64,000 nt of DNA from assembly GCA_021776135.1 (NCBI GenBank), contig JAJFGL010000034.1, forward strand, positions 1 to 64,000, written 5' to 3'. This DNA is from Kiloniellaceae bacterium. Lineage in GTDB: Bacteria > Pseudomonadota > Alphaproteobacteria > Kiloniellales > J153. The position numbers and the translations under genes are program-made. Position 1 is the stretch's first letter; each line of letters begins with the position of its first letter. This document shows, piece by piece, positions 7,622 through 18,202 of this stretch. The notes beneath the pieces are model-generated. The model saw only the letters and a program-made list of their open reading frames with translations, was not told the DNA's origin and searched no databases.

Positions 7622-8637
7622 TGCACGCCAATGCCGATCGCGACAGGCAAGCTCCCTGAACGTTCCCTGTCTTCGGACCAGTGCCTCGTCGCGTCCAGGA
7701 TCTCAAGCGCGCAGGTCACGGCGCGACTCGCGTCGTCCGGCCGCTGCAGCGGGGTGCCGAACACCGCCATGATGGCATCCCCGATGAACTTATCCACTGT
7801 TCCCCCATGGGCGAAAATCGGCTTCGTCAGACGATTCCTGTACTCCGACAGAAAAGAGGTGAGCTCTTCGGGCGTCATCGTTTCTCCCAGTGCCGTGAAA
7901 CCGCGGATATCGACAAAAACCACCGCGACGGGTAGCCGCCGGCCGGCGAGCAGCTGATCGTCGTCGCCCTCGGCGAGGCTGTTGGCGAGGTTCGGTGAAA
8001 AGTACCGCGAGAGCTTTGCCGCGCGGTTCGTTTGAGCGATCGACCGTAAGAGCAGAGCGCGCGTCCGGCGGCTCGTCACGAAGAGAATGAAAGCGGCAAG
8101 CGCAACGAGCGTAAGCGGCAAAATCTGGTAGTTCATAAACGATCCCATGCCGCCGCGCCGCATCGTGTGCGCGCCGAAATTCATCGCATGGTCTTGTGTC
8201 AGGATCAGATCGCCGAGATTGAGTGCGATCAGAAACAGGCTGGCCGCGTAAACGATCAGCCAAGGCCGGTAACGCATGGACGCATGGATGAGAATCACGA
8301 AAATGAGGCCGGCGGCCGGCAATGCGAAAGAAAAGGAGGATTCCATGCCCATTAGGCCGGTGAGCATCAGGATCTGCGTGGAGACCAGGATCACATCGAA
8401 GGTTACAAAAACATAGGGAATGACCGGGTGGAAAATCCCGCGCCACGCCAGAGCCAGGCCAACGATCGTACCGATTCCATAGATCCCGACGGCGAGTTCA
8501 ATCGAGCCAGCAGGTCCCTGGCTTCCTTCGGCGGAGAAGATGACCGACGCCAAGGTGACAAAAACGACCAGCCGGATGACGGCGGATATCTTCTCGGCGT
8601 CGATCTCGGCGCCGCGCAGCAGTTTCTGAATTTCCAT
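7333..8637 (-). CDS. membrane-bound class III adenylate/guanylate cyclase
   Basis: 434 residues. About six hydrophobic segments fill residues 18-188, followed by a linker (KLSRYFSPNLANSLAEG, the usual lead-in to this cyclase type) and the catalytic domain from about 235. Metal-binding aspartates are visible at Asp243 (VDIRGFTAL) and Asp287 (KFIGDAIMAVFG). The later segments IGIHYGEV-like and EYTVIGDTVNVAERLE carry the substrate and transition-state residues. It should convert ATP to cAMP, with the membrane part acting as sensor or anchor. It lies 47 bases downstream of the sensor-kinase gene on the same strand and may be co-transcribed with it. Confidence 0.92.
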   Translation of the reverse strand: MEIQKLLRGAEIDAEKISAVIRLVVFVTLASVIFSAEGSQGPAGSIELAVGIYGIGTIVGLALAWRGIFHPVIPYVFVTFDVILVSTQILMLTGLMGMESSFSFALPAAGLIFVILIHASMRYRPWLIVYAASLFLIALNLGDLILTQDHAMNFGAHTMRRGGMGSFMNYQILPLTLVALAAFILFVTSRRTRALLLRSIAQTNRAAKLSRYFSPNLANSLAEGDDDQLLAGRRLPVAVVFVDIRGFTALGETMTPEELTSFLSEYRNRLTKPIFAHGGTVDKFIGDAIMAVFGTPLQRPDDASRAVTCALEILDATRHWSEDRERSGSLPVAIGIGVHYGEVFAGALGNEQLLEYTVIGDTVNVAERLEGLSRNVGSPLVVSAALLEAATSARKTVEWRRLPPQQLKGHRKPVEAFCLEAPAGTSAPRTRPGP

Positions 8638-8684: not shown

Positions 8685-10052
8685 TCACCGTGGCAGTCGT
8701 ATGTCCACGCGCAGACCGCCTTCGCTTCGATTGGTTAGCGTTATGTCTCCGCCGTGAGCACGGATGATGGTTCGCGCGACGGTAAGACCGAGGCCCGTGC
8801 CACCGGTTTCCCGGCTCCGGGAGGCCTCAAGCCTCCGAAAAGGCTTGAAAGCGTCCTCCTGAAGCTCCCGCGGGATTCCCGGACCGCTATCGTCGATCCG
8901 GACCATGACACCTTGCAGGTCATTTTCCAACGACAAGCGGGCCTGATGGCCATACTTGACGGCATTGTCGATGAGGTTGGTGAGAGCCCGGCGCAGGGCG
9001 GCGGGCCGGCAACCATAGGGTACAGCATCATCACCGATGTCCAATCTGACCGCATGCCCAGCGTCAGCCATGTCGTCGCAGACGCGCTGGAGCAGAGTTC
9101 TGAGGTCGACCATCGCATGAGGTTCACCGGCGGTCTCGTCCCGTGTGAACGACAAGGCCGAAAAGATCATCTTCTCCATGTCGTCGAGATCGGCGAGCAT
9201 CTTCTTCTGCTGGTCCTCGTCCTCTACGAACTCCGCGCGCAGCCGCAATCGTGTGATCGGGGTGCCCAGGTCGTGGGAAATTGCCGCCAACATCTGCGTT
9301 CGGTCTTCGACGAAACGCCGGATTCGCTCCTGCATCTCGTTGAAGGCCCGTGTCGCCTGGCGGACTTCGGCCGGGCCGTCCTCCGGTATTGGGGGCGCTT
9401 TGACATCGGTCCCAAGCCGCTGAGCCGCGCGCGCAAATGTAGCAAGCGGTTTAGTCAGGTAGCGCACGACCAAGGCCGACAGGACGCCGACCGCCAGCAG
9501 CATGATCGCCATCGAAAGGGCGAACCGGAGAGACCAGAAGGGCTCTGGAGACTCGACCGGCGCCGCGAAGTTCAGCCAACTCCCATCGGGAAGCTGGAGA
9601 GAGACCATCATCGTCTCACCAAGTTCGTTTCCCTGGTAGTCTTGGCGCAAGTGCGTCTGCCACGCCTCGGAGGGCCTCTCGTCCGTGTGTCGAAGCCTGA
9701 ATACCAGCCCACCTCCACCGTTGAGATGAGCAACCAAGGCGTCGCGAAGGACGCCCGCTTGCCAACCGCTGTCCTCCTGATCCTCTATGGCACTTTCCTG
9801 GTCCCAGGTGACGTGGAGCTTGGGGCGATCCGCGAGCTCGACGATCCGCCGCCGTTCGGCTTGCGACGCATCCTCAACGAGCCGCTTGATGGTCGCGATC
9901 CGTTCCCCGATGTGCTCCCCTCCGGTGAACATGAGTGCGCTCGTACGATCGGTGAAATACAGTCCGACACTGAGCACGTGTGAGACTGTCAGCCCGATGA
10001 TCAGCACCAGCAGCGTGCGGGCGGCGATGGTGTCAGGTATCAGCTGTTTCAT
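8685..10052 (-). CDS. two-component sensor histidine kinase (EnvZ/CpxA-like)
   Basis: 455 residues. TM1 is at about 11-32; a periplasmic sensor of about 140 residues follows, then TM2 at about 176-196 and a HAMP segment (KPLATFARAAQRLGTD). The HisKA domain has phospho-acceptor His260 (AAISHDLGTPITRLR, a variant H-box). The HATPase domain shows NLIDNAVKYG, DDSGPGIP and GGTGLGLTVARTI. The start overlaps the 3' end of the response-regulator gene by 20 bases, showing translational coupling. The Asp-Leu-Gly-Thr-Pro after the histidine is shared with EnvZ-like kinases. The periplasmic signal is unknown; neighbours suggest envelope or metal stress. Confidence 0.93.
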   Translation of the reverse strand: MKQLIPDTIAARTLLVLIIGLTVSHVLSVGLYFTDRTSALMFTGGEHIGERIATIKRLVEDASQAERRRIVELADRPKLHVTWDQESAIEDQEDSGWQAGVLRDALVAHLNGGGGLVFRLRHTDERPSEAWQTHLRQDYQGNELGETMMVSLQLPDGSWLNFAAPVESPEPFWSLRFALSMAIMLLAVGVLSALVVRYLTKPLATFARAAQRLGTDVKAPPIPEDGPAEVRQATRAFNEMQERIRRFVEDRTQMLAAISHDLGTPITRLRLRAEFVEDEDQQKKMLADLDDMEKMIFSALSFTRDETAGEPHAMVDLRTLLQRVCDDMADAGHAVRLDIGDDAVPYGCRPAALRRALTNLIDNAVKYGHQARLSLENDLQGVMVRIDDSGPGIPRELQEDAFKPFRRLEASRSRETGGTGLGLTVARTIIRAHGGDITLTNRSEGGLRVDIRLPR

Positions 10053-10782
10053 CGTGTGTCACAACTGCCGTGAAAACATAACCGCCGCCGCGCACGGTCT
10101 TGATCAGTTCGGGCTCCTTGGGGTTCGTCTCGATCTTGTGGCGCAGACGACTCACCTGCATGTCGATGCTTCGGTCGAACGGAGCCTCGGCGCGTCCATG
10201 GGTGAGATCGAGAAGTTGGTCCCGGCTGAGGACCCTTTGCGGGTGCTCGGCCAGGGCAACCAAGAGATCGAATTCGCCGGCACTCAGATCAACGATCAGC
10301 CTCTGGGGTGACTCGAGGCGCCGGAGACCCAGGTCGAGGCGCCAGCTGGAGAAGCTCAAGACCTTCCTGCCCGATTTTGCCTGTACGGCAGGGGCACACT
10401 GGGCTCGCCGCAGGACCGCTTTCATACGCGCGAGCAATTCGCGCGGGCTGAAAGGCTTGGGGAGGTAGTCGTCGGCTCCCATCTCAAGGCCGATGATCCG
10501 GTCGGTCTCCTCACCCATCATCGTCAGCATGATGACGGGAATCTGCGACTTGGCCCTCAGGTCCCGGCACAGCGACAGGCCGTCCTCGCCTGGCAGCATC
10601 AGGTCAAGGATGACCAGGTCGATGTGCCAATCCGCAAGGGCCCGGTGCATGTCCTTGCCGTCCTGTGCCGCGGTGACCCGGTACCCGTGCTTGGTCAGAA
10701 ATCGCCCGAGCAGATCGCGTATCTCACGATCGTCGTCGACGACCAGTACGTGAGCCGTAGTTACTGCGCCCGCTGTATTCAT
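10033..10782 (-). CDS. OmpR/PhoB-family response regulator
   Basis: 249 residues from the ATG at 10782; the open frame continues 19 codons upstream, but the receiver domain begins right after this start. The receiver domain has acidic pocket VVDDDRE, phospho-acceptor Asp60 (VILDLMLPGEDG), TMMGEE and Lys in LPKPFSPREL. The C-terminal winged helix (about 145-240) ends in the diagnostic LRHKIETNPKEPELIKTVRG and GYVF motifs. Its own upstream region has several GTAAC-N5 half-site pairs, suggesting autoregulation and control of the divergent gene at 10956. The same type of site lies in front of the protease gene, so a small CpxR-like regulon is plausible. Confidence 0.93.
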   Translation of the reverse strand: MNTAGAVTTAHVLVVDDDREIRDLLGRFLTKHGYRVTAAQDGKDMHRALADWHIDLVILDLMLPGEDGLSLCRDLRAKSQIPVIMLTMMGEETDRIIGLEMGADDYLPKPFSPRELLARMKAVLRRAQCAPAVQAKSGRKVLSFSSWRLDLGLRRLESPQRLIVDLSAGEFDLLVALAEHPQRVLSRDQLLDLTHGRAEAPFDRSIDMQVSRLRHKIETNPKEPELIKTVRGGGYVFTAVVTHDETADT

Positions 10783-10827
10783 GGTGGCAAAATATTTCCT
10801 GTCGCAGCCGTGATCGCGAAGAAATTT

Positions 10828-10842
10828 GTAACGGACCATAAC
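10828..10842 (+). promoter_or_regulatory. CpxR-like site (GTAAC-N5-ATAAC)
   Basis: TTGTAACGGACCATAACCG has two near-identical half-sites at five-base spacing in the gap between the response-regulator gene and the divergent secreted-protein gene. ATTTGTAACGGA here and TCCGTTACCAAAT at 10862-10874 also form an imperfect inverted repeat. Confidence 0.5.
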
Positions 10843-12840: not shown

Positions 12841-14649
12841 ATGTCTTTGATACAGCAAGCGAGTAGGGCGGCCCCCCTCAAGAAAAAGCGGCCGGCCAAG
12901 GTTTCGAAAAAGCCATCGGGCTTGCCGAAGCCCAGCGCCCAGCGGGTGCAAGTAGCTCAGGCGCGGGCCCAACCGGCCGCTCCAGAATCGCCGCAAGATG
13001 CCTGGACCTATGGTCTTGATGCATGGCAACGCTCCATCCTGTTTTGGGATGCCCTGCGCCAGCGCGCCGATAACATGCTGGAGCATGAGCGTTCTGGCCT
13101 GCCGCCCTTGCTCGATTTCAAGTACGAGACGATCCTCGATGCGCGGCGCTTCGAGCATCCCGCCAACTACGCTCTGCTGCGGATCACGGAAGTGGGCGAG
13201 GATTGCTGGGACGATTGCGTCGATCCGGCCAAGCCGCCGGTCATGGTCGTCGATCCGCGCGCCGGGCACGGGCCCGGGATCGGCGGCTTCAAGCGCGACT
13301 CCGAGGTCGGCATGGCGCTCCACGAGGGGCACCCGGTCTACTTCGTGATCTTTTTCCCCGAGCCCGCGCCGGGGCAAACGTTGGCCGACGTCCACCACGC
13401 GCTGCGCCGCTTCGTGGAAGAAGTCGCGCGGCGCCATCCGGGCAAGCCGCCGGTCCTCTACGGCAACTGCCAGGCGGGCTGGGCCATAACCCTGCTCTCG
13501 GCCGACTGCGAGGGGCTGGCCGGGCCGGCGGTCTTGAACGGCTCGCCGCTGTCCTACTGGGCCGGGGAGTCCGGCACCAACCCGATGCGTGTCTCGGGGG
13601 GCCTGTTGGGCGGCGCCTGGTTGGCACATTTCATGTCCGACCTCGGCGACGGCCGCTTCGACGGCGCCTGGCTGGCCCAGAACTTTGAGAACCTGAAGCC
13701 CGAGAAGGCCATCTGGGAGAAATACGCCGGCCTTTTCAGTAAGATCGATACCGAGCGCGAGCGCTTCCTAGAGTTCGAGCGCTGGTGGAACGGATTTTAC
13801 ACACTCAGCCGCGAGGAGATCGTGGCGATCGTTGAGAACCTGTTCATCGGCAACAAGCTGGAACGGGGCGAGTTCCGCATTTGCGAGGGCTGCACCGTCG
13901 ACCTGCGGCGCATCCGCAATCCGATCGTCGTCTTCGCCTCCTACGGCGACAACATCACCCCGCCGCACCAGGCCTTGGGGTGGATCCCCGCGGTCTATGA
14001 GGATACCGACGATCTCAAGCAAGCAGAGCAACGGATCGTCTATCTGACCAACCCGCATGTGGGTCATCTCGGCATCTTCGTCTCGGCCAGCGTCGCGCGC
14101 TTCGAGCACCGGGCCATTCTCGAGAGCCTGGAGGAGATCGAGGCCCTGGCGCCCGGTCTTTACGAGATGAAGATCGACAACCCGAGCGGCGATCCGGACT
14201 GCCACAAGCCCCAGTACAGCGTGCGCTTCGAAGAGCGGAAGGTCGAGGATCTCGACATTCCACCGCAGGACGAGGCGTTCGAGCGGGTTCGCGCCGCATC
14301 GGAGACCAACGAGGCGTTTTACAAGACCTTCGTCAGCCCGTGGGTTCAGGCCGCCGCCAATCCGTGGTCGGCGGAGATGATGAAGTGGCTGCACCCGATG
14401 CGGACCACTCGGTACATGTTCTCCGAGGCGTTCAATCCCTGGATGCGCGGCGTTTCGATCCTTGCCGACGCCGTCGCCAAGAACCGGGTCCCTCTGCCCG
14501 AAGATCACCCGTTGCTCGAGAAGGAGCGGGCGTTCATCGCTCAGGTCTCCGAAGCGATGGAGAACGCGCGGGAGGCGCGAGACGGCGCCACCGAGCAAAC
14601 CTTTGGCCTGCTTTATGGGAATTCGGGTGAACGGTTTGCCGAGGAATGA
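12841..14649 (+). CDS. DUF3141 protein, PHA-synthase/alpha-beta-hydrolase-like
   Basis: 602 residues. After a basic N-terminal tail (KKKRPAKVSKK) comes a DUF3141-type sequence: SPQDAWTYGLDAWQRSILFWD, then an alpha/beta-hydrolase core with YGNCQAGWA, where Cys210 takes the nucleophile position as in PHA synthases (GxCxG). Later landmarks are the SPLSYWAGESGTNPMR segment, FASYGDNITPPHQAL (candidate acid) and NPHVGHLGIF (candidate His). Members I recall are nearer 770 residues, so this copy appears C-terminally shortened; it ends directly at a disrupted junction with an acetate-kinase relic. It begins the cluster through fabI. Its reaction is unproven. Confidence 0.8.
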   Translation: MSLIQQASRAAPLKKKRPAKVSKKPSGLPKPSAQRVQVAQARAQPAAPESPQDAWTYGLDAWQRSILFWDALRQRADNMLEHERSGLPPLLDFKYETILDARRFEHPANYALLRITEVGEDCWDDCVDPAKPPVMVVDPRAGHGPGIGGFKRDSEVGMALHEGHPVYFVIFFPEPAPGQTLADVHHALRRFVEEVARRHPGKPPVLYGNCQAGWAITLLSADCEGLAGPAVLNGSPLSYWAGESGTNPMRVSGGLLGGAWLAHFMSDLGDGRFDGAWLAQNFENLKPEKAIWEKYAGLFSKIDTERERFLEFERWWNGFYTLSREEIVAIVENLFIGNKLERGEFRICEGCTVDLRRIRNPIVVFASYGDNITPPHQALGWIPAVYEDTDDLKQAEQRIVYLTNPHVGHLGIFVSASVARFEHRAILESLEEIEALAPGLYEMKIDNPSGDPDCHKPQYSVRFEERKVEDLDIPPQDEAFERVRAASETNEAFYKTFVSPWVQAAANPWSAEMMKWLHPMRTTRYMFSEAFNPWMRGVSILADAVAKNRVPLPEDHPLLEKERAFIAQVSEAMENAREARDGATEQTFGLLYGNSGERFAEE

Positions 14650-14652
14650 TCG

Positions 14653-15999
14653 ATGACAACACGACAATCTAGGGAACCGGCTTCGTTCATGTCCAATGGC
14701 ACGGTGATTGGCTGCGGTCCGTCCAGCGTCAAGTTTGCTCGGTTTAGGTCCCGGGCCTCCGGTTGTTCTGTCATGATCCACAGCGACGACCTCGCGTCCG
14801 AAGTATCTGACTCCAAAACCCAGATTCGGGAAAAGATAATGCTTGTCGGTGGCTACGGCCAAGTCGGGCAGCTCATCGCCGAACGGCTTGCGCCCAGCTT
14901 TCCAGACCGACTCATTATCGTCGGCCGCAGCCTCGACAAGGCGGCGGCCTGCGCGACCCGGATTGGCGAAGGCGCCACCGGGCGGGCGCTTGATGTAAAT
15001 TCCGAGAACTTGGGCAGCCATTTAGAAGATGTGGCGTTGGTCCTGGTTTGCCTCGATCAGGCGGACTCCCGTTTCGTTGAGCAGTGCCTGTCTCGCGGCA
15101 TCGATTACCTCGATGTGACCGCCAGCTACGAATTCCTGCGCCGGGTGAGCGCACTTGACTCACTGGCGAAGCGCAGCGGTGCCACCGCGGTGCTCAGCGT
15201 CGGCGTTGCCCCTGGCCTCACCAATCTGATCGCGGCGCAAGCCGTGAATGCCATGAACCGCACGAACCGGATCGATGTCTTCATTCAGCTCGGTTTGGGC
15301 GGCAGGCATGGCAAAGCCGCTATTGCCTGGATGATCGACAACCTAGATGCCACCTACGATGTGCGCGAGGCGAGCCAGCAGATGTCGGTGCGGAGTTTCG
15401 GAGAAAGCCGGCGTGTTCGCTTCCCCGGACAACGCGTCGCGAGCATCGCCTATCGCTTCAATTTCTCCGATCAGCAGGTTTTGACATGGACGTTGAACGT
15501 GCCTTCGGTTTCCACATGGGTGTGCTTCGACAGCCGCTTTTTGACCTGGCTGCTCGCGGCAGGCGCCCGAGCTGGGCTGGGGCGGCCGATGCGCAAGCCC
15601 GGCTGGCGGGCCGCCGCGATCTGGCTGTTCAGAAACGTGCGTGTGGGTTCCGATGTCTGCGCGGTTGTGGTGCGCGCCGCCGGCAAGACCAAGCAAGGGG
15701 ATCGAACGCTTGAGCTGAGCGTCGTCGGACGCAATGAGGTGTTGATGACCGCGGTCGTCGCGGCAGAGGTCGCCCGGCAGATGTTGTCCGCTAAGCTCGG
15801 TGCCGGCGTGTTTCACAGCGAACAGATCATCGCGCTCGATTCTGTGGTGTCTGCTCTCAAGGACGAGTTGAAGGATTTACTGGTCAACCTTGACCCTTTC
15901 CCGCTCGAAAGCCTCACCAGCGACACCTCTCAGACGCAGCTGGCGTCCCGGCTCAACCCGCTGGCGGCGGGCAGCATGGAGAAGCAAGGTGATCTCTGA
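14653..15999 (+). CDS. saccharopine-dehydrogenase-like oxidoreductase with a fused 5' relic
   Basis: The open frame is 448 residues. ATG 14653 has GAGGA at good distance, but an alternative start is ATG 14773. From about residue 62 it is a saccharopine-dehydrogenase-type NAD(P) Rossmann protein: IMLVGGYGQVGQLIAERL, RLIIVGRSLDKAA, LVCLDQADSRFVEQC, IDYLDVTASYEFL and VGVAPGLTNLIAA. The first 35 or so residues instead resemble the start of acetate kinase (GTVIGCGPSSVKFARF versus ILVINCGSSSVKFALF in the next gene). The gene therefore appears to have been inserted into the front of ackA, leaving a partial duplicate. It ends overlapping the GTG start of ackA. Substrate unknown. Confidence 0.75.
   Translation: MTTRQSREPASFMSNGTVIGCGPSSVKFARFRSRASGCSVMIHSDDLASEVSDSKTQIREKIMLVGGYGQVGQLIAERLAPSFPDRLIIVGRSLDKAAACATRIGEGATGRALDVNSENLGSHLEDVALVLVCLDQADSRFVEQCLSRGIDYLDVTASYEFLRRVSALDSLAKRSGATAVLSVGVAPGLTNLIAAQAVNAMNRTNRIDVFIQLGLGGRHGKAAIAWMIDNLDATYDVREASQQMSVRSFGESRRVRFPGQRVASIAYRFNFSDQQVLTWTLNVPSVSTWVCFDSRFLTWLLAAGARAGLGRPMRKPGWRAAAIWLFRNVRVGSDVCAVVVRAAGKTKQGDRTLELSVVGRNEVLMTAVVAAEVARQMLSAKLGAGVFHSEQIIALDSVVSALKDELKDLLVNLDPFPLESLTSDTSQTQLASRLNPLAAGSMEKQGDL
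14689..14748 (+). pseudogene. duplicated 5' remnant of acetate kinase
   Basis: The translation MSNGTVIGCGPSSVKFARF aligns with the start of the intact kinase downstream (SDPAILVINCGSSSVKFALF). At the DNA level AGCGTCAAGTT and CTGCGG are shared between 14713-14740 and 16020-16046. The Asn of the kinase signature is replaced by Gly here, so this piece could not work as a kinase. Confidence 0.6.
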
Positions 16000-17194
16000 T
16001 CCGGCCATCCTGGTGATCAACTGCGGCTCGTCGAGCGTCAAGTTCGCGCTCTTCGCCGACGAGGAGTCGCCCCGGCGCCTCTGGGCGGGCGCGCTCGAAC
16101 GCATCGGCCTGGCCGACGGCCGGTTCCGCGCGACCGATGAGAGCGGCGATACTGTCGTCGATGAAACGCAAAATATTCCGGACCATGCGGGGGCTTTGCG
16201 CATGCTGCTGGACAGGCTCGCGCGCCACCCTTCCGGCGTGTGCCCCATCGCCGTCGGTCACCGGGTCGTGCATGGCGGCGCGGATTGCGACTGCTCCTTG
16301 CCCGTGGATGAGGCTCTGCTGACAAGGCTGCGGCGGCTGATTCCGCTCGCGCCTTTGCACCTGCCGCACAACCTCGCCGGCATCGCCGCCGTCCGGCGCG
16401 CGCGGCCGGACCTGCCGCAAGTCGCCTGTTTCGACACCGCATTCCACCACGGGCTCCCACGCCTCGCCCAGCTCACGGGGCTGCCGCGGGCATTCGCGGA
16501 CGCGGGCATCCATCGCTACGGCTTCCATGGCCTCTCCTACGAGTACGTCATGACCGATCTGCAACACCGGCACGGCCCGAACGTGGCCAAGGAACGCATC
16601 GTGGTCGCCCATCTCGGCAACGGCGCGTCGATGGCGGCGATCAGGGATGGCCGGAGCGTGGATACGACGATGGGCTTCAGCACGCTCGGGGGCCTGCCGA
16701 TGGGCACGCGCTCGGGCGACCTCGATCCGGGAATCGTCCTCTACCTGCTTATGGAAAAGGCCATGACGGCCGAGCAAGTGCAGCATCTGCTTTATGAGCA
16801 GTCGGGACTGCTAGGCGTCTCCGGCCTTAGCCGCGATATGCGGGAGCTACTAGCGCGATCGGATTCAGTGGCAGCGACCGAGGCGATCGGCTTCTTCTGC
16901 TACCAAGCCCGAAAACACCTGGCCGCGCTCACAGCTTCCTTGGGCGGTCTCGACCGTCTCGTATTCACGGGCGGCATCGGCGCGAACGCGCCGGCGATCC
17001 GGGCCAAAATCTGCGACCGCCTCGCTTATCTCGGCGTCGAAATCGACGAGCGCCGTAACGCGGGCGGAGAGCGGACGATCTCGGCGGACAAAAGCCCCGT
17101 CCCGATCGAAGCATTCCCGACGGACGAAGAGCTGATGATCGCGCGGCACGTCCGGCATGTCTGCGCGGACCTGCCGATGGCCCGGGAGGCCTGA
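15989..17194 (+). CDS. ackA: acetate kinase (acetate/propionate family)
   Basis: 401 residues when started at GTG 15989; this start has GGAGA five bases upstream and gives the usual family length. N-terminal signature ILVINCGSSSVKFALF, then GHRVVHGG, CFDTAFHH, YGFHGLSYEYV, HLGNGASMAA, DTTMGFSTLGGLPMGTRSGDLDPG and FTGGIGANAP are all present; these cover the phosphate-binding, acetate-binding and catalytic residues. It interconverts acetate plus ATP with acetyl phosphate. It partners with the phosphotransacylase gene four bases downstream. Its start lies within the end of the upstream oxidoreductase, so translation is coupled. Confidence 0.95.
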   Translation: MISDPAILVINCGSSSVKFALFADEESPRRLWAGALERIGLADGRFRATDESGDTVVDETQNIPDHAGALRMLLDRLARHPSGVCPIAVGHRVVHGGADCDCSLPVDEALLTRLRRLIPLAPLHLPHNLAGIAAVRRARPDLPQVACFDTAFHHGLPRLAQLTGLPRAFADAGIHRYGFHGLSYEYVMTDLQHRHGPNVAKERIVVAHLGNGASMAAIRDGRSVDTTMGFSTLGGLPMGTRSGDLDPGIVLYLLMEKAMTAEQVQHLLYEQSGLLGVSGLSRDMRELLARSDSVAATEAIGFFCYQARKHLAALTASLGGLDRLVFTGGIGANAPAIRAKICDRLAYLGVEIDERRNAGGERTISADKSPVPIEAFPTDEELMIARHVRHVCADLPMAREA

Positions 17195-17197
17195 ACG

Positions 17198-18202
17198 ATG
17201 ACAGCGCCGATTGGCACTCTGAAACACCTCATCGACCAGGCCCGGTCGCTCAAGCCGATCCGGGTCGCCGTGGTTGACGCCGCGCAAGGCCTGGTGATCG
17301 AGACCCTTCGCGAGGCCCAAGCGCTGGGAATTGTCGAGCCATGCCTGATCGGCGATCCGGAAGCGATTGCAAGCGTCTGCCGGGATCTCGACTGGCAAAC
17401 GCACGATGATTGGATCCTTCCGGCCCCGAGCGACCCGGCCGCGGCGGCCAAGGCTGTCGAGCTGGTCCGTGGCGGCGAGGCCGATGCCATTATGAAGGGA
17501 AACATCCATACGGACGTGCTGATGCGCGGGCTTCTCGACAAGGAACATGGCCTGAGGTTGCCGGGGCGGCGAGTGAGCCATGTCTTCGTCGCCGAGGTGT
17601 CGAGCCATCCGAAGCTTCTCGCCATCACCGATGCGGCGATCAACATCGCGCCCGACCTCAACGCCAAGGCGCAGATCCTGCAGAACGCGGTCGAGCTGTT
17701 CCATCTTCTCGGCGTCGAGATGCCCAAGGTGGCCGTACTGTCGTCGGTCGAGACGGTGAATCCGGCGATCGCCTCGACCCTGGACGCCGCCTGCCTGACC
17801 CTGATGGCGCGGCGCGGCCAGATCGCCGGCGCCTTGGTCGATGGGCCGCTCGCCTTCGACAGCGCCGTCTCCGCCGCGGCCGCGAAAGAGAAGGGGATCG
17901 TGTCGGAGGCCGCGGGCGACGCCGATATCGTCCTGGTCCCCGATCTGGTCTCCGGCAACATCCTGGCCAAGAATCTCGAGTACCTGGCCGGCGCGGTGGC
18001 GGCCGGTGTGGTCATGGGCCTCGCGGCGCCTGTCGTGCTCAGTTCGCGCGCCGATCCGCCGGCCGCGCGGCTCGCCGGCCTGGCGCTCGCCAGCCTGATG
18101 CACCACCGGAGCGCCAAAGTGCCGGCCAAGGCCGCCGCCCCGGAGGCAAGCCTCTCCTGCGCCCCGCAGGCGGAACACGCCTGCTATCCACTCCCGGGAT
18201 AA
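17198..18202 (+). CDS. phosphate acetyl/butyryl transferase (phosphotransacylase)
   Basis: 334 residues; a single PTA_PTB domain without the N-terminal MaoC hydratase domain that some related island genes carry. Conserved features are RVAVVDAAQGLVIETLREA at about 21, DAIMKGNIHTDVLMRGLL, RRVSHVFV, ITDAAINIAPDLNAKAQI, VAVLSSVETVNP and the DIVLVPDLVSGNILAKNLEYLAGA block near the C-terminus. It converts acyl-CoA and phosphate to acyl-phosphate and CoA; with AckA it links CoA thioesters to ATP. The last 30 residues carry extra cysteines (LSCAPQAEHACYPLPG). One base separates it from the PHA-synthase gene. Confidence 0.92.
   Translation: MTAPIGTLKHLIDQARSLKPIRVAVVDAAQGLVIETLREAQALGIVEPCLIGDPEAIASVCRDLDWQTHDDWILPAPSDPAAAAKAVELVRGGEADAIMKGNIHTDVLMRGLLDKEHGLRLPGRRVSHVFVAEVSSHPKLLAITDAAINIAPDLNAKAQILQNAVELFHLLGVEMPKVAVLSSVETVNPAIASTLDAACLTLMARRGQIAGALVDGPLAFDSAVSAAAAKEKGIVSEAAGDADIVLVPDLVSGNILAKNLEYLAGAVAAGVVMGLAAPVVLSSRADPPAARLAGLALASLMHHRSAKVPAKAAAPEASLSCAPQAEHACYPLPG

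Follow-up and report, generated by a model that had tools for sequence, protein, structure and literature searches.

Comparison of the window (the whole stretch of 64,000 nucleotides analysed here) with related genomes indicated that a saccharopine-dehydrogenase-like open reading frame (ORF) between the DUF3141 and acetate kinase (ackA) genes begins with the remnant of an acetate kinase 5' end. Judged from the alignments, the N-terminal leader of this ORF is the old DUF3141–ackA junction plus about 20 ackA codons, with a single origin for the three carriers. Taken as a whole, the arrangement is best explained by insertion of a dehydrogenase gene about 20 codons inside an ackA gene that directly followed DUF3141, a reading that we hold with considerable confidence.

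The DUF3141–ackA locus

The window locus is a copper-related island, which also holds YHS-domain and DUF5676 genes, a phosphate acyltransferase gene, phaC, a gene for an FAD enzyme and fabI. The features are as follows.

8685-10839, minus strand: copS and copR
12841..14649, plus strand: full-length DUF3141 gene (PhaC-like alpha/beta hydrolase family; Pfam PF11339, E 2e-212; 602 aa)
14641..14645, plus strand: likely ribosome-binding site GAGGA for the ORF at 14653, inside the DUF3141 3' end (from the sequence)
14653..15999, plus strand: saccharopine-dehydrogenase-like ORF, leader and tail both fused (448 aa; orthologues in L051, L052 and, as a contig-edge fragment, G005)
14653..14685, plus strand: leader part 1, former DUF3141–ackA intergenic DNA, now coding, according to in-register alignment with the G861 junction
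14686..14748, plus strand: leader part 2, remnant of the first ~22 codons of the old ackA, with the signature at 14703-14744 and the two-codon deletion found also in L051 and A. marina, according to PSSM and DNA scans and register-locked alignment
14749..14802, plus strand: leader part 3, linker present in the window and L051 and deleted in A. marina (alignment)
14836..15903, plus strand: dehydrogenase body, residues ~62-417, NAD(P)-binding Rossmann domain first (pLDDT, dN/dS, Foldseek)
15947..15999, plus strand: DUF2933 3' remnant in frame with the dehydrogenase tail (blastn match to G001 resumes at 15947)
15978-15984, plus strand: ackA ribosome-binding site GGAGAAG, within the DUF2933 remnant
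15989..17194, plus strand: intact acetate/propionate kinase gene ackA, GTG start (PF00871, E 5e-113)
17198..18202, plus strand: phosphate acetyl/butyryl transferase gene, next in the conserved cluster (PF01515; NCBIfam PRK08190)
22559: copper-type P-ATPase gene

The original prediction described DUF3141 as ending early. The gene has a normal length (602 aa), however, and its C-terminus is like those of G861, G862 and Aurantimonas marina. Over its last dozen codons, the window DUF3141 is nearer by a few bases to G861 and A. marina than to G001 and G003, which belong to the same genus as the window; we regard this resemblance as only a hint.

Neighborhoods downstream of DUF3141 differed between genomes. 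In G003 (L088), DUF3141 is followed directly by fabI; everything from ackA through pta to phaC is missing, and searching that genome revealed no ackA. DUF3141 is followed directly by phaC in G1077 (L102) and by a copper ATPase gene in G957 (L101), which indicates that the site 3' of DUF3141 is often rearranged.

A kinase remnant in the leader

Residues 18-31 of the leader (VIGCGPSSVKFARF) and the opening of AckA (VINCGSSSVKFALF) agree in 11 of 14 positions. We built a PSSM from 26 AckA N-termini and slid it over the window in all six frames, covering 93,501 stop-free positions. The scan returned 55.9 bits for ackA, 23.6 bits for the leader (at 14698) and 4.4 bits for the next place, so that the leader ranked 2 of 93,501. 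At the DNA level, positions 14703-14744 matched the ackA start at 32 of 42 bases, with 27 of 42 for the next-best place in the 64 kb. The orthologous leader of L051 (IAMIDCGSSSNKSARQ) also took PSSM rank 2 (10.4 bits, with 3.1 for the next), and the leader is the best non-ackA match to the signature in both the window and L051. The repeated acetate-kinase signature reported in the original prediction is thus real. The leader is nearer to the cluster-type ackA (INCGSSSVKFA; 32-33/42) than to the second ackA of the same genome, on contig C68 (25/42). Different ackA residues have been lost in the window and L051 leaders, so that the ancestor they share probably resembled ackA more closely than either does. 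The Pfam Acetate_kinase model did not match the 62-aa leaders even at E 10, about 20 decayed codons being too short for it, and the A. marina leader matched ackA significantly only in register, not by local alignment alone.

Direct DUF3141–ackA junctions, which the original prediction had expected to reveal the ancestral order, exist in G861, G862, G1004 and G845. We used G861, the best among the four examined; G861 and G862 belong to the same family as the L051 genome and lack the dehydrogenase gene. We compared the sequences in register, starting at the ATG three bases past the DUF3141 stop codon, with the following translations ([LV] marks two codons missing in the carriers).

G861: MTVRRPKE*IPMKSDSAI[LV]INCGSSSVKFALFA
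Window: MTTRQSREPASFMSNGTV--IGCGPSSVKFARFR
L051: MMTGQSKKPIPITSDIAM--IDCGSSSNKSARQR
A. marina: MTTRQSTASTQTSFEDAR--IDRGSS, with a deletion after that

Register-locked identity to the G861 junction was 51/93 for the window, 52/93 for L051 and 33/69 for A. marina, and 0, 0 and 7 of 20,000 codon shuffles, respectively, were as good. Upstream of the signature alone, L051 still matched G861 significantly (28/51; 5 of 20,000 shuffles as good), and the window match was weak by itself (432 of 20,000). The A. marina leader was placed by the register-locked comparison, since MAFFT misplaces it. One two-codon deletion relative to G861 is common to the window, L051 and A. marina. Together with the in-register match, this deletion argues that the leader is the old junction and arose once for the three carriers. 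The core of the original prediction, insertion at the ackA start beside DUF3141 with the kinase 5' end left behind, is supported by the G861 junction.

These comparisons bear on two other accounts. A disordered N-terminal extension might merely resemble the ackA signature by chance or convergence: the match is a single one of 14 residues, picked by eye, and the local match in A. marina lacks significance. We consider this very improbable, given the second rank by a wide margin in the window, the same rank in L051 and the in-register match to the uninserted junction upstream of the signature as well. Alternatively, the region from the dehydrogenase gene to the ackA start may have been duplicated in place, with later loss of the first dehydrogenase copy and no foreign DNA entering. 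Tandem duplication and deletion would give the same final gene order and a kinase fragment of the cluster's own type, but it requires a dehydrogenase gene already upstream of ackA, yet the leader is colinear with an uninterrupted DUF3141–ackA junction and near relatives have that junction without the dehydrogenase; we judge it quite unlikely.

Recent copying of the adjoining ackA does not account for the kinase fragment, and the earlier notion of a simple duplication of the present gene is not supported. The fragment predates the split of the three lineages. The alternatives offered with it, a decayed duplication or a fused leader, each proved partly true, since the leader has decayed yet remains open and fused.

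Two candidate reference points were dropped. G001 had been considered as an ancestral empty site; it is sister to the carrier G005, so absence of the gene may reflect loss, and G861 serves better. An insertion point between DUF3141 and DUF2933, taken from A. marina, was abandoned since G861 puts the left join inside the old ackA.

The dehydrogenase and its two ends

GAGGA precedes the same ATG in A. marina (L052) as in the window, the following codons are also common to both, and A. marina lacks a methionine at 14773. Translation therefore probably starts at 14653, as judged from these shared elements. The dN/dS ratio was 0.55 for the leader, compared with 0.21 for the body, and residues 1-56 were disordered in the AlphaFold model (pLDDT below 50); the leader sequence looks weakly constrained. 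It may nevertheless have been retained because it is functional, for instance as a module for translation coupling or for the start site that sets dehydrogenase output between DUF3141 and ackA, which would be compatible with insertion. The frame is open and free of indels between the window and L051 over 61 codons, the ATG and GAGGA site are the same in the window and A. marina, and only three bases separate the DUF3141 stop from the ORF start. Against such a role stand the higher dN/dS ratio, the low pLDDT and the deletion of about half of the leader in A. marina, and we are doubtful of it. A bolder version strikes us as improbable: the leader would be a portable translation-start and coupling module, and a unit made of the DUF3141 end, the kinase leader and the dehydrogenase would spread from one copper island to another, recombining through its DUF3141 and ackA ends into any DUF3141–ackA junction.

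The ORF contains a Sacchrp_dh_NADP domain (PF03435) at residues 63-180 (E 8e-11; 42.8 bits against a curated cut-off of 25.1), which was also matched by seven of eight homologues. The dehydrogenase proper starts at about residue 50-62, where free-standing homologues begin and the disordered stretch of the AlphaFold model ends; pLDDT in the body was mostly above 85. Foldseek related the body to the two-domain carboxyspermidine dehydrogenase 8deb (E 2.5e-19; TM-scores about 0.6-0.8). The fold is like those of carboxyspermidine dehydrogenases (8deb, 8h4z) and lysine dehydrogenase 3abi (Foldseek E about 3e-19), although identity to the ORF is only 15-18%. Because of this likeness between the model and those enzymes, our best guess is that the product is an NAD(P)-dependent dehydrogenase for an amino-acid or polyamine-type substrate. 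Free-standing homologues in the saccharopine dehydrogenase NADP-binding family have neither the fused leader nor the fused tail. The tail (15904-15999, residues 418-448) is predicted to be disordered and differs in each carrier, a pattern that repeated fusions or deletions at this end would be expected to produce.

On the right-hand side, the GTG start of ackA (15989) overlaps the end of the dehydrogenase ORF, whose stop codon lies at 15997-15999. In G001 and A. marina, ackA is immediately preceded by a small, DUF2933-like membrane gene that runs into it; the G001 gene is a DUF2933 relative just below the Pfam cut-off (19.7 vs 21 bits), and there, with no insertion present, its stop codon overlaps the GTG of ackA. 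Homology between the window and G001 resumes at 15947 (blastn), within the last ~16 codons of the DUF2933 gene, and the DUF2933 end fused to the dehydrogenase reads NPLAAGSMEKQGDL in comparison with NPPSAAGGAEKHGDL. Since the window tail corresponds to the DUF2933 end and the same overlap exists in uninserted G001, the GTG overlap is the old DUF2933/ackA one, inherited rather than made by the insertion as had been proposed. In G005 (L073, minus strand, about 8444-8590), about 130 bases separate the dehydrogenase stop from ackA; they form an in-frame 5' extension of ackA and resemble neither DUF2933 nor the window.

The L051 ackA is a mosaic by sequence: of the informative sites, 9 of 10 in its first 60 nt agree with the window, and 106 of 126 in the following 360 nt agree with G861. 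The switch point, at about codon 20, concerns L051 and not the first insertion event. This mosaic suggests a homologous join at about codon 20 with an illegitimate join on the other side. With DUF2933 loss and a mosaic ackA, the right side of the locus has a history of its own.

Spread, proposed origin and known parallels

A scan of 84,980 species genomes for orthologues identified L051 (a Hyphomicrobiales MAG; 77%), A. marina L052 (75%) and a contig-edge fragment in the Kiloniellaceae MAG G005. Searches of samples from the class, order and families yielded nothing beyond more distant homologues. The known set is three complete carriers and a single fragment at a contig edge. Where the start of a free-standing homologue was read, it lay at the dehydrogenase domain or within about 20 codons of it, with no ackA-like leader. 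A homologue with the same N-terminus and no adjacent ackA, which would have spoken against the original prediction, was sought and not found. Plasmid searches with the leader DNA or peptide returned nothing relevant, and a scan of viral contigs found nothing.

In G922 and on an Alteromonas plasmid, a homologue is convergent to copS-copR, which indicates that the dehydrogenase was probably a copper-island gene already before its move. Plasmids of Alteromonas macleodii (L092, 7001-7785; L093, 8001-8786) carry an unannotated partial homologue (residues 152-413), apparently a broken copy, convergent to copper sensor genes. In Haloarcula litorea (L065, 3130-6182), a homologue overlaps a copper-translocating P-type ATPase gene, extending the copper-gene link of the family to archaea.

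The ackA tree placed the window with G001 and G005 (83/97) and L051 with G861 and G862 (87/86). Carriers are scattered on this tree, requiring four changes, which implies either transfer of the cassette between islands or several losses. Both the ackA and the copA tree made G001, which lacks the gene, the sister of the carrier G005 (ultrafast bootstrap 98-99); support in the DUF3141 tree was weaker. Related clusters sit on conjugative plasmids, a possible route for transfer. Copper-island clusters on Pseudohalocynthiibacter and Roseovarius conjugative plasmids (DUF5676-DUF3141-DUF2933-ackA-pta-fabI-copA) have the gene set and order of the window locus, but they lack the dehydrogenase and have a DUF2933 gene (annotated in Pseudohalocynthiibacter) between DUF3141 and ackA.

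Under insertion into ackA, the ancestral order would have been DUF3141–ackA, as in G861. In one ancestor, a segment bearing a dehydrogenase gene from a copper island, with DUF2933 and a complete ackA apparently behind it, would have joined about 20 codons into the resident ackA. The stop codon of DUF3141 would have survived this join, as would the short gap and the first ~20 codons of ackA; these would have become the dehydrogenase leader, translated from the ATG three bases past that stop and presumably coupled to DUF3141. The likeliest route would be homology-facilitated illegitimate recombination, in which the right-hand join would be a homologous crossover within ackA and the left-hand one illegitimate; taken alone, this route has about an even chance of being correct. 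The cassette may later have been transferred between lineages or lost from them, in an order that we can only infer. In the window, a deletion would then have fused the dehydrogenase tail to the last ~16 DUF2933 codons, keeping the ackA ribosome-binding site and GTG overlap. A donor segment (dehydrogenase-DUF2933-ackA without the leader), and hence the DNA upstream of the donor dehydrogenase, was not found in the genomes searched.

Rather than a new system, the locus is an informative fossil that records how an operon was remodelled in a mobile copper island. A readable record of gene entry into an operon is rare for inserted genes; here, the remodelling steps can be ordered from an uninserted junction, three lineages with the insertion, a subsequent deletion and a mosaic flank. 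A new N-terminus can arise from the start of an interrupted neighbor gene, and such leaders should not be taken for functional domains.

Our literature search returned no description of this cluster arrangement, but the event is of a known kind, of which the locus is a clear and unusually readable case. Homology-facilitated illegitimate recombination is known (PMC3240628, and natural-transformation studies that PMC5361080 cites) and has been proposed for gene arrays that retain old parts (PMC5361080). One join is homologous and the other illegitimate, non-homologous DNA is integrated next to a conserved gene, and part of the target stays behind, as would be the case here. The event at the window locus is reconstructed from sequence, and neither the donor nor microhomology at the left join was seen. 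In Vibrio cholerae, displacement of T6SS effectors leaves ancestral immunity genes (PMC5361080), and, as here, a new module lies between conserved flanks with older parts remaining as a record. Whole immunity genes stay in V. cholerae, whereas at the window locus, in an unrelated metabolic setting, about 20 codons of a metabolic gene were absorbed into the new protein.
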